Below, in pieces: positions 655 through 49,329 of a stretch of 64,000 nucleotides of DNA. Both the position numbers and the translations under genes were made by a program. Below the pieces are notes generated by a model. That model made no database searches, was not told where the DNA came from, and saw only the letters and a list, made by a program, of their open reading frames with translations. Numbering within the stretch: position 1 is the stretch's first letter; every line of letters starts with the position of its first letter. The stretch is from Hyphomicrobiaceae bacterium. Lineage in GTDB: Bacteria > Pseudomonadota > Alphaproteobacteria > Rhizobiales > Devosiaceae. Location of the stretch: the NCBI GenBank assembly GCA_020638095.1, contig JACKJF010000004.1:372001-436000 (forward strand), read 5' to 3'.

Positions 655-3600
655 TCAGCTCAACCGCGCGTCGCGCACACCTGGTATCGATTTGACCCCG
701 CCGGCCAGTTCAGGCGTGACCTTGAAACGGCCCTCGAGTGCAATCTCGAATTCGGTTGCCCGATCCTCACCAAGCACCCGGAACGAAACCGAGCCGTTGC
801 CGCCGGTCCTGAGAAGTCTCGAAATCGGACCGAGGCAGTCTTCGCTCTCGGCGTGAATGGTCAGGTGCCGCTCCGCCGCCAGCGCCACATGATCGAGCGC
901 TTCGGCCTTGAGGAGCCGCACACGGATGCCTTCTGCCTGCTCCTCCGCTCCCACGTCGAGAATGAGGAGGTTGCCCGCCACCAGAACATCGGACGAAGTG
1001 GCCAGCTGCTCCGAAAAGACCAGGCATTCGTATGAACCCGTCGGGTCCGACAGCGTCAGGATCGACATCGGCGCACCTTTGCGCGTCCGCCGGTCCTGCC
1101 GCGAGGCCAGAAGCCCGGCGAGTTTGCCCGCCGTCGCGCCCCGCTTGACCGCTTCGGCAAAGCCCGACCACAAATGCACATTCTTTTCCGAAAGAAGATC
1201 GAGATACTCGTCGAGCGGATGCCCCGAAAGGTGAAAGCCGATGGCCGCGAACTCGCGTTCCAGCCTTTCCGATGGTTTCCATTTCTGCGCCCGACCGTTG
1301 AGCGGAACTTCGGCCACCTCCATTTCGCCGAACATGTCGGTCATCCCGGCCGCCTTGTCCTGGCTTATCCGTTGGGAGGTTCCGACCATCGCCTCGATCG
1401 CTTCGAACGCCTGCTCCCGGTAATCAACCAGGCTGTCGAAAGCCCCGGCGGCGACGAGCGATTCAAGCGTCCGGCGACCAATGATCCTTGGGTCGACCCG
1501 CTTGGCGAAATCGGAAAGCGTCGTGAACGGCCTGTCGCCCCGGACGGCAACGATATGCTCGGCAACCTGCCGCCCTACCCCCTTGACCGCGCACAGCGCG
1601 TAAAGAATGTCGCCGTCCCGGACGTCGAAAACGTCGGCCGACCGGTTGATGTCCGGCGCCTTGACCTCGATCCCCAGCCGGTTGGCATCGCGTTTGAACT
1701 CGGCCAGCTTGTCTGTATTGCCCATGTCGAGGGTCATCGACGCCGCGAGAAATTCGCGCGGAAAGTGGGTCTTGAGATAGGCGGTCTGGATCGAGACCAG
1801 CGCGTATGCGGCCGCGTGTGACTTGTTGAAGCCGTAATCGGCGAACTTGGCCAGAAGGTCGAATATCTGGTTCGCAAGATTCTCCGAAATGTTCTCGCGC
1901 GCGCAGCCTTCGACGAACCGCGTCTGCTGCTTGTTCATCTCCGCGCGGTCTTTCTTGCCCATGGCGCGCCGCAGCACGTCGGCTTCACCGAGCGAATAGC
2001 CGGCCAGAACCTGGGCGATCTGCATCACCTGTTCCTGGTAGACGATGATGCCGTAGGTCTCCGCAAGGATGGGCTCCATTTTCGGATGAAGCACGGAAAA
2101 CTTCTCCTTGCCGTGCTTGCGGGCGCAGAAGCTAGGAATGTTCTCCATCGGGCCGGGCCGGAACAGCGCCACAAGCGCAATGATGTCCTCGAACCGGTCA
2201 GGCTGCATGTCGAGGAGCGCCCGCCGCATGCCCGCGCTTTCAATCTGGAAGATGCCGACGGTTCCGCCTTTCCGCAGCATGGCGTAGGTCGCATCGTCGT
2301 CGATCGGAATGCGCGCCGGCGTCAGACCGGCTCCGGTCCGGTTGGCCATGGCAATGGCGTGCTTGATGACGGTTAGAGTCTTGAGGCCAAGAAAGTCGAA
2401 CTTGACCAGCCCGGCCGGTTCGACCCATTTCAGCGAGTACTGGGTGACCGGCATGTCCGATCTCGGATCGCGATAGAGCGGCACGAGATCCTGCAGCGGC
2501 CGATCTCCAATCACGATGCCCGCCGCGTGGGTCGAAGCGTGCCGGTAAAGACCTTCGATATGCTGGGAAATATCGATCAGCTGGCCGACGGTCTCATCAT
2601 CGTCGCGCAACGCCCGAAGCTGGGGCACATCGTCCAGCGCCTTGGCGATCGTCACCGGGTTTGCCGGATTGGCCGGCACCAGCTTGCAGATCCGGTCAAC
2701 CTGGCCATACGGCATCTGCAGTACGCGACCGACATCGCGCAGCGCCGCCCGGGCCTGCAGCGAGCCAAAGGTGATGATCTGGGCCACCTGGTCGTGCCCG
2801 TATTTCCCCTGAACATAGCGGATCACGTCCTCGCGCCCATCCTGGCAGAAATCGATATCGAAGTCCGGCATCGAGATGCGGTCGGGATTGAGAAAGCGCT
2901 CGAAGAGCAGGTTGTAGCGCAAGGGATCGATATCGGTGATCGTCAGCGCATAGGCGACAAGAGAGCCGGCACCCGACCCGCGCCCCGGCCCCACCGGAAT
3001 ATCGTGGTCCTTGGCCCATTTGATAAAGTCGGCCACGATCAGGAAATAGCCGGGATACTTCATGTTCTCGATGATTTCGAGTTCGCGTTCGAGCCGCGCT
3101 TCGTAGTCTCCGACCGAAAAGTCAGGCGCCGTCCCGAACGCGTCTATTCGAACCTTCAAACCTTCCCTTGCCTGTCGCGCCAGTTCGCTGGCCTCAAGCG
3201 CAACGGCCCGCTCGGGATCGCCCGCGGCCTCCGGGGCGAAAGAGGGTAAAATTGGTCCGCGCGTCAGCGGCCGGAACGCCACCCGGCGCGCGATCTCGAC
3301 CGTATTGTCGAGGGCTTCGGGCAGGTCGGCGAAAAGCGCCATCATCTCGTCGCGCGACTTGAAATAGTGCTGGTCGGATAGCTTTCGCCGCTCGGTCTGG
3401 GCCAGCACCGAACCCGCGGCGATGGCAAGAAGCGCGTCATGCGCCTCGTAATCGTCGATCGTCGGGAAAAAGGGTTCGTTAGTCGCAACCAGCGGCAAAC
3501 CTCGGTCGTAGGCAAGATCGATGAGCACCGGTTCCACGCGCGCTTCCCGCGCCAGTCCATGGCGTTGCAGCTCGACATAAAGCCGGTCACCGAAGAGACG

Positions 3601-4098
3601 CATGAGCACGTTGAGCCGTTGCTCGGCGTGCGGCTGACGCCCGTCCCCGATCAGCGTGTCGATGGCCCCTTCCGGTCCACCCGTGAGACAGACCATTCCC
3701 GTGAGGTCAGCCGCCTCCAGCCACTCCTCGGCAACCGCAACGTGACCCGGCTCGCTCTCGAGATAGGCGCGCGACACGAGCCGTGACATCTGAAGAAAGC
3801 CGCTCTCGTTGAGCGCGATCAAGACGATGCGGCCGGAATCCGCATGGCGTTCGTCAGGCGCCTCGTCACCCGTGGCGAAGTCAACCTGCATCTGCACGCC
3901 GACAATCGGCTGGATGCCCTTCTTGGCCGCCTTTTCCGAGAATTCCAGCGCGCCAAAGAGATCGGACGTATCGGCAATGCCAAGCGCGGGCTGCCCGTCG
4001 GCTGCGGCGAGATCGAGCAGCCGCCCGACCGGCAGCGCACCTTCGAGTAGCGAATAGGCCGTGTGCACGTGAAGATGCACGAACCCCGGTGACGCCAT
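655..4098 (-). CDS. dnaE: DNA polymerase III alpha subunit (replicative DnaE1 type)
   Basis: Catalytic subunit of the replicative DNA polymerase. An N-terminal PHP domain starts almost at once (FVHLHVHTAYS). The polymerase motif PDFDIDF, with catalytic aspartates, lies near residue 410. A helix-hairpin-helix and OB-fold region follow toward the C-terminus. At 1147 residues the length fits DnaE1. I chose the ATG at 4098 because AAGGGA lies just upstream; the ATG nine codons earlier has no ribosome site. The only promoter-like sequence upstream in this orientation is the LexA-type promoter at 4268-4296, before the small ORF 4144-4242, so dnaE may be read partly from an SOS-controlled transcript, although a weaker constitutive promoter cannot be excluded. 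Confidence 0.97.
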   Translation of the reverse strand: MASPGFVHLHVHTAYSLLEGALPVGRLLDLAAADGQPALGIADTSDLFGALEFSEKAAKKGIQPIVGVQMQVDFATGDEAPDERHADSGRIVLIALNESGFLQMSRLVSRAYLESEPGHVAVAEEWLEAADLTGMVCLTGGPEGAIDTLIGDGRQPHAEQRLNVLMRLFGDRLYVELQRHGLAREARVEPVLIDLAYDRGLPLVATNEPFFPTIDDYEAHDALLAIAAGSVLAQTERRKLSDQHYFKSRDEMMALFADLPEALDNTVEIARRVAFRPLTRGPILPSFAPEAAGDPERAVALEASELARQAREGLKVRIDAFGTAPDFSVGDYEARLERELEIIENMKYPGYFLIVADFIKWAKDHDIPVGPGRGSGAGSLVAYALTITDIDPLRYNLLFERFLNPDRISMPDFDIDFCQDGREDVIRYVQGKYGHDQVAQIITFGSLQARAALRDVGRVLQMPYGQVDRICKLVPANPANPVTIAKALDDVPQLRALRDDDETVGQLIDISQHIEGLYRHASTHAAGIVIGDRPLQDLVPLYRDPRSDMPVTQYSLKWVEPAGLVKFDFLGLKTLTVIKHAIAMANRTGAGLTPARIPIDDDATYAMLRKGGTVGIFQIESAGMRRALLDMQPDRFEDIIALVALFRPGPMENIPSFCARKHGKEKFSVLHPKMEPILAETYGIIVYQEQVMQIAQVLAGYSLGEADVLRRAMGKKDRAEMNKQQTRFVEGCARENISENLANQIFDLLAKFADYGFNKSHAAAYALVSIQTAYLKTHFPREFLAASMTLDMGNTDKLAEFKRDANRLGIEVKAPDINRSADVFDVRDGDILYALCAVKGVGRQVAEHIVAVRGDRPFTTLSDFAKRVDPRIIGRRTLESLVAAGAFDSLVDYREQAFEAIEAMVGTSQRISQDKAAGMTDMFGEMEVAEVPLNGRAQKWKPSERLEREFAAIGFHLSGHPLDEYLDLLSEKNVHLWSGFAEAVKRGATAGKLAGLLASRQDRRTRKGAPMSILTLSDPTGSYECLVFSEQLATSSDVLVAGNLLILDVGAEEQAEGIRVRLLKAEALDHVALAAERHLTIHAESEDCLGPISRLLRTGGNGSVSFRVLGEDRATEFEIALEGRFKVTPELAGGVKSIPGVRDARLS

Positions 4099-4143
4099 TG
4101 ATCCCTTCCCTGCTTCGCCGACCATTTTAACCCGGATGACCGG

Positions 4144-4242
4144 TCAGGAAAGCCGCTGCAGGATGTCCATCCACATGAATGCCGAGCCGCACACCGCGCT
4201 AAGCGTCGTGAAAGCCATCAGGTCTTTGAAGAATGTGGACAT
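4144..4242 (-). CDS. 32-residue single-span membrane peptide, LexA-type promoter
   Basis: I do not recognise a family. The ATG at 4242 is preceded by a strong AAGGAG four to six bases upstream. The product has a short charged start (MSTFFKD), about 18 hydrophobic residues (LMAFTTLSAVCGSAFMWM) and a short tail DILQRLS, so one membrane span is predicted. A -35/-10 promoter with an exact GAAC-N7-GAAC operator in its spacer lies 26 bp upstream. dnaE begins 45 bp after the stop. Size, topology and control resemble the Caulobacter SOS peptide SidA (29 residues, inner-membrane division inhibitor). That is an analogy of architecture; I cannot claim sequence homology. Confidence 0.72.
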   Translation of the reverse strand: MSTFFKDLMAFTTLSAVCGSAFMWMDILQRLS

Positions 4243-4267
4243 CGCTGGTCTCCTTGTTCGACGTCCG

Positions 4268-4318
4268 ATGGTATGTTCCCTGTTTGTTCTTTTCAAGCGG
4301 TTTGTTCTTGTTTTGATC
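4268..4318 (-). promoter_or_regulatory. SOS promoter with two LexA-type boxes
   Basis: Read on the minus strand: -35 TTGAAA (4296-4291), a 17-bp spacer and -10 TACCAT (4273-4268). The spacer contains GAAC-N7-GAAC (4289-4275), an exact match to the alphaproteobacterial LexA operator. A second copy with one mismatch, GATC-N7-GAAC (4318-4304), lies 29 bp upstream, just before the -35. Operator inside promoter spacer is the classic repressible layout. Nothing in the upstream gene lolD shares this promoter, as lolD ends at 4372. Confidence 0.8.
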
Positions 4319-4371
4319 TTTTCGAGCCGATGCCTTAACAATTTGTGAATTCGCTGGGATCAGCCGAAAAA

Positions 4372-5058
4372 TCAGAGGGTTGCCGGAACGACCCTGCCGC
4401 CCTCGAGGGTGATCACGCGATCGGCCTTTCGCGCAAGCGAATGATCATGGGTAACGAACAGCGTTCCCGACCCCTGGTTCCGCATGAGGTCAACCAGCGC
4501 GTCGAACACCATGCCGCTGGTCGCCGGATCGAGATTGCCGGTCGGTTCGTCAGCGAGAATGATATGTGGCTTGTTTGCCGCCGCCCGGGCAATGGCCACC
4601 CGCTGCTGTTCCCCGCCCGAGAGTTCGGTTGGCCGGTGTTCTGCCCGTGCCCCGACCCCCAGAAGGTCGAGCAATTCCTTGCCGCGCACCCGCGCCGCCG
4701 CTTCCTTGTGACCTGCGATCAACATGGGAATCACAAGGTTCTCGAGCGCCGTGAACTCTGGAAGCAAATGGTGAAACTGATAGACGAAACCGATCGCCGT
4801 CCGCCTGAGCTGGGTCCGCGCCCGGTCGCCGAGATTGTGGGTTGGCTGTCCGTCAACAACCACCTCGCCTGCGCTCGGTTGATCGAGAAGTCCCGCAATG
4901 TGCAGAAGCGTCGACTTTCCTGCGCCCGACGGCGCGACCAGGGCCACCAGTTCTCCCGAGCCTACCGAGACCGTTGCATCGCTCAGGACTTCGAGCCGCG
5001 CCTCCCCCTTGCCATAGGACTTGGCGATGTTCTTGAGTTCGAGCAGTACCCTATTCAT
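4372..5058 (-). CDS. lolD: Lipoprotein-releasing ABC transporter ATPase LolD
   Basis: ATPase of the LolCDE machine that releases lipoproteins from the inner membrane. Visible motifs are Walker A APSGAGKST (residues 42-50), signature LSGGEQQRVAIARA (from 146) and Walker B IILADEPTGNLD (166-177). At 228 residues it has the usual length. The gene overlaps the end of the permease gene by 8 bp, so the two are translationally linked. It is the last gene of the proS-lolE-lolD run before the LexA-type promoter. Confidence 0.94.
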   Translation of the reverse strand: MNRVLLELKNIAKSYGKGEARLEVLSDATVSVGSGELVALVAPSGAGKSTLLHIAGLLDQPSAGEVVVDGQPTHNLGDRARTQLRRTAIGFVYQFHHLLPEFTALENLVIPMLIAGHKEAAARVRGKELLDLLGVGARAEHRPTELSGGEQQRVAIARAAANKPHIILADEPTGNLDPATSGMVFDALVDLMRNQGSGTLFVTHDHSLARKADRVITLEGGRVVPATL

Positions 5059-6421
5059 AGCGCAGCGCCTCGACCGGATCGTAGCGCGCCGCGCGCAATG
5101 CGGGGTAGAGCGTCGCTAGGAACGTCAGGATCAGCGACAGGCCGACAACCACGGTCACTTCGAGCGGATCGATCTTCGTCGGCAGCGCCGAAAGGAAGAA
5201 GACCTCCGGCGGAAAGAGCCGGATGCCCAACAGGTCCGACAGCCATGCCCGCAGCGCCTCCGCATTCGCCGCGATGACCAGTCCAAGTACTAGCCCGAGC
5301 ACGGTTCCCGCAATGCCGATCGCTGTCCCGGTCATGCAGAATATCCGCATGATCGAACTCCGCGTCGCTCCCATCGTGCGGAGAATGGCAATATCCGCAC
5401 CCTTGTCTTTGACGAGCATGACCAGCGACGAAATGATGTTGAAGGCCGCCACCACCACGATCATCGACAGAATGGTGAACATCACCACCCGCTCGACCTG
5501 AAGCGCCGAAAAGAAGGTCTGGTTGCGCTGTTTCCAGTCCGTCAGAACCATTGGCCGGTCGACGTCGGAATAGATCGTCTCCGCCATCACATCGGTGTCG
5601 TCGGGTTTGGCGATGAAAATCTCGATGCCCGTCGCCTCATAGATACGCTCGTAGGCGGCATCGATTTCCGCGTCCGTCGCATCGAATCCCGGCGGATCGA
5701 CCCCGGGTTTCAACTGATCTTCGTAAAGCTTGAAATAGGTCTGTGCCTTTTCGATCGGCATGTAGACGTAGAAGGAATCGAACTCGACCATGCCGAGATT
5801 GAAGATCACCGTCACCGGGTAGGACCGGATTTGCGGGGTTGCCCCGAACGGCGTCATGGCCCCATTGGGATTGACGAGCGTGATCGAATCCCCGAGCGAA
5901 ACACCAAGTTTTTGCGCCAGGCGGCTGCCAATCGCCACACCTTCGCTCTCGTCCCATCCGTCAAAGCTGCCAAAAATGGCCGAAGTCGCAAGAAGCGGAA
6001 GCTTGCTGATGTCGGCAAAGGTCATGCCGCGCACCGAAACACCCGACGCGTCTCCCGCGCCAGAAGCGAGCGCCTGGCCTTCGACAAAGGCGACAGCGTG
6101 AGTCACACCGGGCACATCCTCGATCCGCGTCACCAGCTCCTTATAGTCGGTCAGCTTGGTCTCGACCGGATAGGCGGTGAAATGGCCGTTGAGCCCCAAT
6201 ATCTTGGACAAAAGTTCGTCGCGGAACCCGTTCATCACCGACATCACGACGATGAGGGTCGCAACCCCGATGGCGACCCCCGTCAGCGTCAAGCCGGCGA
6301 TGACCGAGATGAAGGCATCCTTGCGCCGTGACCTGAGATAGCGTCCCGCCATGAGCCATTCGAACCGCGAGAAGGCTCGCGATCCGGCCGGATTGATTTT
6401 TGCGGCGCTGGCCTCGGTCAA
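5051..6421 (-). CDS. lolE: Lipoprotein-releasing permease, LolC/LolE family
   Basis: Membrane subunit of the Lol lipoprotein release complex. Residues about 20-60 hold [20 protein letters not shown] followed by the first membrane span. A long periplasmic MacB-like domain comes next, then an FtsX domain with three spans near the C-terminus. At 456 residues it is slightly longer than usual. Only one permease gene is present, as in most alphaproteobacteria, so it probably acts as a homodimer and could equally be called lolC. The start is a TTG that overlaps the proS stop (TTGA); no better ATG precedes the first span, so the start is less certain than the gene. Confidence 0.92.
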
Positions 6422-49129: not shown

Positions 49130-49329
49130 TTTGCCCTCCGTTGCAAAGTCTGTCCGGGTCATGCCCGTTTGATGACCGGACTATGCCCCCTGCGCGCTGA
49201 ACCGATTTGGAACCCGCCATTCATCTGCCGTTCATTTTGGCGATGCGGTTTTGCCGACCCGCAACCGCTTCGCGGTATGCTAGACGTGAACAAAAGGTGA
49301 TTCGCTCAGCCGGGAGTGCAAGGGCACCC

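Follow-up and report, generated by a model that had tools for sequence, protein, structure and literature searches.

The window, that is, the whole 64-kb stretch of DNA analysed here, carries a small ORF located between a lolD-type gene and dnaE, with all three genes on the minus strand. The features of this locus are listed below with their coordinates in the window.

655-4125, minus strand: dnaE, DNA polymerase III alpha (NF004226, 1413.9 bits), downstream of the sidA-like ORF
4242-4144, minus strand: sidA-like ORF, 32 codons plus stop, translation MSTFFKDLMAFTTLSAVCGSAFMWMDILQRLS (32 aa)
4255-4250, minus strand: Shine-Dalgarno sequence AAGGAG, 7 nt before the ATG of the sidA-like ORF
4296-4268, minus strand: sigma-70-type promoter TTGAAA-17-TACCAT, with the operator inside its 17-bp spacer
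4289-4275, minus strand: exact LexA-type operator GAAC-N7-GAAC, GAACAAACAGGGAAC, starting 47 bp before the ATG
4318-4304, minus strand: second LexA-like box GATC-N7-GAAC, GATCAAAACAAGAAC, with one mismatch, 29 bp upstream of the exact box
4372-5058, minus strand: lolD-type ABC ATPase, the upstream neighbour (the best named models are LolD, under their cut-offs)
5051-6421, minus strand: lolC/E-type permease (TIGR02212, above cut-off)

A scan of positions 4050-4450 recognized TTGAAA-17-TACCAT as the single promoter, with 9 of 12 matches; the mean number found in shuffled sequences was 0.1. The arrangement agrees with what an earlier note had described from the letters of this DNA: the exact GAAC-N7-GAAC sequence does lie inside the 17-bp spacer between the -35 and -10 elements, the one-mismatch second box is indeed 29 bp away, and the first ORF after the operator is preceded by the AAGGAG motif. 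The predicted operator, placed as it is between -35 and -10, is the reverse complement of the GTTCN7GTTC sequence given for the LexA-type operator of Caulobacter (PMC12700426, PMC9578287). The first ATG of dnaE is 18 bp past the stop codon of the small ORF and a second ATG (at 4098) is approximately 45 bp past it; because this gap is so short, the dnaE of the window is probably co-transcribed with the sidA-like ORF.

The box by itself proves nothing, since exact GAAC-N7-GAAC sequences occur 6 times in the 64-kb window vs. 2.47 expected, and 6 or more were counted in 6 of 100 shuffles, a number near chance; its weight derives from its conservation in relatives. One exact box on the plus strand (49199-49213) precedes a gene for a gyrase-B/ParE-type topoisomerase, some 117 bp from its likely ATG (49330), and may be there by chance, with 2.5 boxes expected per window.

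The window peptide likely forms one membrane helix, as judged from its sequence. The single membrane span claimed in the earlier note has moderate support in this copy of 32 residues, in which the best 17-residue Kyte-Doolittle mean is 1.46, below the usual value of 1.6; in the family, 103 of 118 distinct peptides reach 1.6. A Pfam search of the window peptide named no family, and for 23 family members it returned two stray matches only, with E of 0.098 or worse. A structured RNA in place of a peptide was also considered and rejected: the single Rfam match is on the other strand, and its score (PhrS, 14.4 bits) is to be compared with a gathering score of 37.

We studied the conservation of the locus in 80 genomic loci fetched with the DnaE protein as the sole query (the top 80 of at least 588). 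In 25 of these 80 loci a short ORF belonging to this family is found within 400 bp upstream of dnaE: 15 were chosen visually, with the boxes also in view, and served as seeds together with the window; the remaining 10 were recovered by the seed HMM, the weakest being L019 (E 0.022). An exact box on the same strand within 450 bp upstream is present in 20 of the 25 loci with a family ORF vs. 3 of the 55 loci without one (Fisher p 2e-11). Searching upstream of dnaE in Hyphomicrobiales for a conserved frame with the same operator, the check proposed in the earlier note, thus yields both. Five family loci (L003, L037, L039, L046, L067) have no exact box within this limit; four of them have one-mismatch boxes, and in L046 an exact box occurs at -458, just beyond the 450 bp.

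Among the loci with a box and no recognised family ORF, L018 and L024 have the exact box at -254 and -381 from dnaE, and short hydrophobic ORFs (MLRIWFESFTEILSLAILAGMIGFWAAVGAGV; MLKRLVLTGMVEFMAFGMLFAAVGAWAIALAPVR) start 43 and 46 bp after its first base. The family model does not reach these ORFs, and both loci were counted as misses; they are probably more diverged members of the family. In L060, from Commensalibacter, an exact box is located 198 bp before dnaE, with no recognised family peptide.

Overall, 155 fetched loci (some genomes are included twice) match the family at 15 bits or better. dnaE is found within 400 bp downstream in 147 of them, and lolD within 400 bp upstream in 34 and at 0.5 to 2.2 kb in 47; as the linkage with lolD is loose, synteny rests on dnaE. 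When duplicates and unlinked matches are removed, there remain 142 distinct loci linked to dnaE or lolD. An exact box lies within 200 bp upstream of the family ORF in 119 of these 142, vs. 0.4% of base-shuffled stretches, and it most commonly starts at -47 to -54 from the start codon. On these counts the SidA-like short gene under a LexA-type operator, as proposed in the earlier note, is real and conserved. The family peptides have 26 to 40 residues, with a median of 32; in the first ten positions a basic residue occurs in 114, and an acidic one in 116, of the 118 distinct peptides.

The pattern of nucleotide differences bears on whether the frame is translated. Six Devosia-type copies encode one and the same peptide; the 12 nucleotide columns at which they vary are all third codon positions, in an ORF in which only 27% of the possible single changes are silent. 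Over 141 Devosia-type pairs with at least 75% identity, which share sequences and are not independent, pS is 0.35 and pN 0.10, and the differences at the three codon positions number 648, 288 and 1232, respectively. The Devosia copies are under strong purifying selection, and the short ORF is a protein gene.

As regards the relationship to SidA, the NCBIfam model NF033228 (div_inhib_SidA) matches all 13 Caulobacteraceae peptides of alignment A2 (one row of which is a residue short), the first member scoring 71.2 bits vs. a cut-off of 35. The 13 peptides, from ORFs of about 29 residues, are all encoded directly before dnaE with a gap of 29 to 91 bp; in those Caulobacteraceae loci that show lolD, it mostly lies 0.75 to 1.3 kb upstream, which leaves dnaE as the neighbour common to both groups. 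Since the Caulobacteraceae ORF at this same dnaE-adjacent place scores in the SidA model, homology is favored over convergence. The core idea of the earlier note, an overlooked SidA-like gene under putative SOS control, is right. The note had also regarded the gene as independently placed and as a candidate new effector; the first point fails on the 13 of 13 SidA-model-positive Caulobacteraceae genes that occupy the same place before dnaE, and the second gives way to a syntenic, diverged SidA homologue. We take CCNA_02004 (sidA) and CC1926 (dnaE) to be neighbours in C. crescentus. The labels come from the literature (PMC11034885 for sidA, PMC1839093 for dnaE), and fit a locus with sidA before dnaE.

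NF033228 does not match the window peptide at E≤10. It matches 5 of the 23 members of the mixed alignment, and of 150 genomes from the order of Devosia sp. ZB163 (Hyphomicrobiales) not one reaches its cut-off, so that the wider family goes unnamed by the curated model; in 14 control genomes it is above cut-off in one, C. vibrioides being among the four with any match. For this reason the window peptide, which has V17 where at least 90% of the 23-member alignment has F, is classed as a diverged homologue and is not placed under that equivalog. With an HMM of the Caulobacteraceae peptides only, the window ORF ranks 8th of the 1535 segments of the whole window, and the family ORF ranks ahead of every other six-frame segment for 13 of the 19 other non-Caulobacterales loci (L006 and L072, among the 19, carry an identical peptide); the other six are L003 (12th), L005 (2nd), L015 (36th), L030 (unscored), L050 (73rd) and L080 (7th). 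Profile-profile comparison of the Caulobacteraceae with other Hyphomicrobiales gives Prob 88 and P 3.1e-6, and with the Devosia/window group Prob 64 and P 6.7e-5, in an alignment that needs a five-residue gap. The C-terminal half and the position of the Trp differ between Caulobacteraceae and Hyphomicrobiales.

A position-blind iteration was carried out from the Caulobacteraceae set alone, in a collection of 40,516 segments (half of them reversed decoys) drawn from the window, the 80 loci fetched with DnaE and a further 61; as these 61 were fetched with the family alignment, this collection is rich in members. At E≤0.05 the iteration gathered 79 segments, all family ORFs, and 0 decoys; the window peptide was picked up at E 1e-5, when it was not yet part of the model. 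At E≤0.2 it also ended at 79 segments, with the window recruited at E 0.0066 and no decoy, and at E≤0.01 and E≤0.001 it stayed within the Caulobacteraceae and did not reach the window. On iteration, synteny and operator together, we regard the homology of the window peptide to SidA as established, and the window ORF is very likely orthologous to sidA.

To survey the distribution of the family, groups of genomes were searched at E≤0.1 with A1, the mixed alignment; each group takes its inferred name from the named locus at its center. Matches were found in 226 of 249 genomes in the family of Caulobacter sp. S45, in 18 of 19 in the genus of Devosia sp. ZB163, in 238 of 397 (many of them weak) in the order of the latter, and in 48 of 385 across the whole class, where they are mostly weak and partly due to chance. 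The negative control, the order of Litoreibacter, gave 3 matches in 149 genomes, each of them within a long frame (299 to 576 codons). Of 17 genomes behind chosen loci 12 match, and there is no family match in Bartonella, Litoreibacter, Ruegeria, a Hyphomicrobiaceae MAG and Methylobacterium. SidA-like genes thus appear to be widespread well beyond the reach of the curated model. An extra member with a GTG start and 34 residues (L108/L234, G025:C23:39134-39223, E 5.6e-7) occurs in a genome of the Devosia genus group, elsewhere than at dnaE and lacking an exact box; a long ORF with GPQGPAGPK lies a few kb off.

LexA boxes at dnaE have been noted earlier in alphaproteobacteria. The promoters of the Devosia peptides typically read TGGACA or TAGACA, GAAC-N7-GAAC, ATATAA or ATACAA, followed by more GAAC-like repeats. 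At Devosia recA (L238-L252), with a readable promoter in 15 of 19 genomes and fragments in the others, all 15 have AAAC-N7-GAAC, one mismatch from the exact operator, after TTGAC, with an overlapping second degenerate repeat (GAAC-N7 plus GCAC, GTAC or CAAC); an exact box is near recA in 1 of the 15, far upstream and reversed, in the GTTC orientation. These recA sites fit control by LexA, and indicate that an exact operator is not required for it. In a clade of Hyphomicrobiales with a 27-residue version of the peptide, GAAC-N7-ATAC precedes the peptide and dnaE in 7 of 7 loci (L219, L221, L223, L225, L227, L232, L233), and may represent a weakened or changed operator.

The genomes with the 27-residue version also hold second copies away from dnaE (L218, L220, L222, L224, L228), with no exact box within 150 bp. 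These phage-type copies have 27 to 31 residues, read MIIRD[ILV]LALGSL.., and are on prophage-type DNA. Six neighbouring ORFs were searched, one of which gave nothing useful: L224 is next to an SSB and a repressor-type HTH protein, L228 to an ERF recombination protein, and L218 to a GapR-type protein and a weak polymerase-beta-type match. Integrase-like ORFs, as judged by eye, are also seen near the phage-type copies. A DNA pattern retrieved three IMG/VR contigs (L264, ATG at about 9036; L265; L266), 36 to 44 kb long, that carry a like peptide, again lacking an exact LexA box upstream; L264 and L266 duplicate L222 and L228, so that the distinct copies are six. A pattern for another motif variant found no viral contig, and a tblastn search with one 27-residue peptide found none in 50,697 phage records. 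It is likely that temperate phages captured the SidA-like peptide from their hosts.

These results can be interpreted in terms of what the operator and the short ORF are for. One explanation, a chance ORF next to a chance operator, draws on the near-expected number of boxes in the window; we give it practically no credence, and consider it ruled out because relatives conserve the frame, the box and the spacing. According to another reading, the operator would control dnaE, with the short ORF as an incidental frame or a regulatory leader, as might be suggested by the position of dnaE within about 50 bp in the window. This tenet is challenged by three genomes, those of Mesorhizobium sp. (G006, L004), Aquibium carbonis (G007, L008) and Mesorhizobium kowhaii (G008, L011), which gave weak whole-genome matches (E 3e-4, 0.08 and 0.01, respectively). 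Their peptide loci (L090-L092) have the peptide 144 to 313 bp after lolD and an exact box that starts 48 or 49 bp before the ATG, with dnaE absent from the 3-kb stretch around the peptide; at dnaE itself, in L004, L008 and L011 as well as in a fourth genome (L010), there is neither an exact nor a one-mismatch box in the 450 bp upstream. Peptide and box stay together while dnaE is elsewhere without a box, and therefore the operator belongs to the peptide. Purifying selection at the amino-acid level, and the absence of an exact box in 52 of the 55 dnaE loci where no family ORF was recognised, also speak against a leader of dnaE, which we regard as very improbable; the Mesorhizobium-type loci and the association between box and ORF rule out an operator for dnaE.

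We consider it likely that the gene in the window is a sidA homologue, encoding an SOS-induced, LexA-repressed membrane peptide that arrests division via FtsW. In normal growth LexA would sit on the operator, which is observed between the -35 and -10 elements, and keep the gene off. Upon DNA damage LexA would be cleaved and the promoter would fire, producing a single-helix inner-membrane peptide of about 30 residues; by analogy with SidA of Caulobacter, this would bind the septal machinery at FtsW and hold constriction until repair is complete. Where the gap is short, as in the window and in Devosia, dnaE would be raised on the same transcript, and the operator would still serve the peptide, since the two remain together in the 3 genomes with dnaE elsewhere. 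Against this identification we have counted the missing NF033228 match, the failure of the strict iteration, V17, the moderate hydropathy, the five-residue gap, the inexact recA sites, the degraded operator of the 27-residue clade and the loose lolD linkage.

With the same locus and the same homology, the SOS peptide could also act on an envelope target other than FtsW, either a part of the divisome or the membrane. A shift of this kind would be in keeping with the large divergence between Caulobacteraceae and Hyphomicrobiales, in the C-terminal half and in the position of the Trp, and with models in which SidA is placed, at low confidence, on the opposite side of FtsW TM7 from YneA, ChiZ and SosA (PMC13396833), which suggests that such peptides need not share one site. 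The small size (26-40 aa), the early charged residues and the position of the operator are preserved family-wide and argue against a changed target, which we judge to be unlikely. Returning to the sidA homologue acting at FtsW, a broader proposal can be made, to which we give slightly less than even confidence: SidA, rather than being peculiar to Caulobacter, would be an SOS checkpoint on division that is ancestral to a large clade of alphaproteobacteria (Hyphomicrobiales, Caulobacterales and Rhodobiaceae/PS1-type lineages) and kept beside dnaE, and temperate phages of Hyphomicrobiales would have taken the peptide, freed from LexA, to stop division of the host.

In titles and abstracts among the matches listed we found no description of SidA homologues in Hyphomicrobiales, which does not prove that there is none. 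The locus provides a specific candidate for an SOS division checkpoint in this order (rhizobia, Devosia, Bradyrhizobium and kin), and the 118 distinct diverged sequences offer material for mapping how a helix of about 30 residues could block FtsW.

Several known systems can be compared with the window gene. YneA, SosA, ChiZ and DivS of Gram-positive bacteria, which belong to other phyla, are likewise small damage-induced division inhibitors. YneA, ChiZ and SosA have been modelled at FtsW, with low confidence (PMC13396833). SulA of E. coli is also an SOS-induced division inhibitor, but it disrupts FtsZ polymerisation (PMC4211646). DidA of Caulobacter resembles the window peptide as a small single-span, damage-induced division inhibitor (PMC4211646), and differs from it in its 71 residues, its independence of SOS and its other locus (CCNA_03212). 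SidA itself is a 29-aa inner-membrane protein of Caulobacter that blocks division at FtsW (PMC4211646), and an AlphaFold 3 model, not of high confidence, places it near FtsW TM7 (PMC13396833). Compared with the 29 residues of SidA the window peptide has 32, with V17 and a shifted Trp, and is beyond the reach of the curated model; it shares with SidA of C. crescentus the tiny size, the LexA-type box in the promoter, the place before dnaE (as seen in the 13 Caulobacteraceae members) and the link by profile iteration, and is probably of the same single-helix type. The locus is a member of the SidA family already known in kind, whose range it usefully widens.
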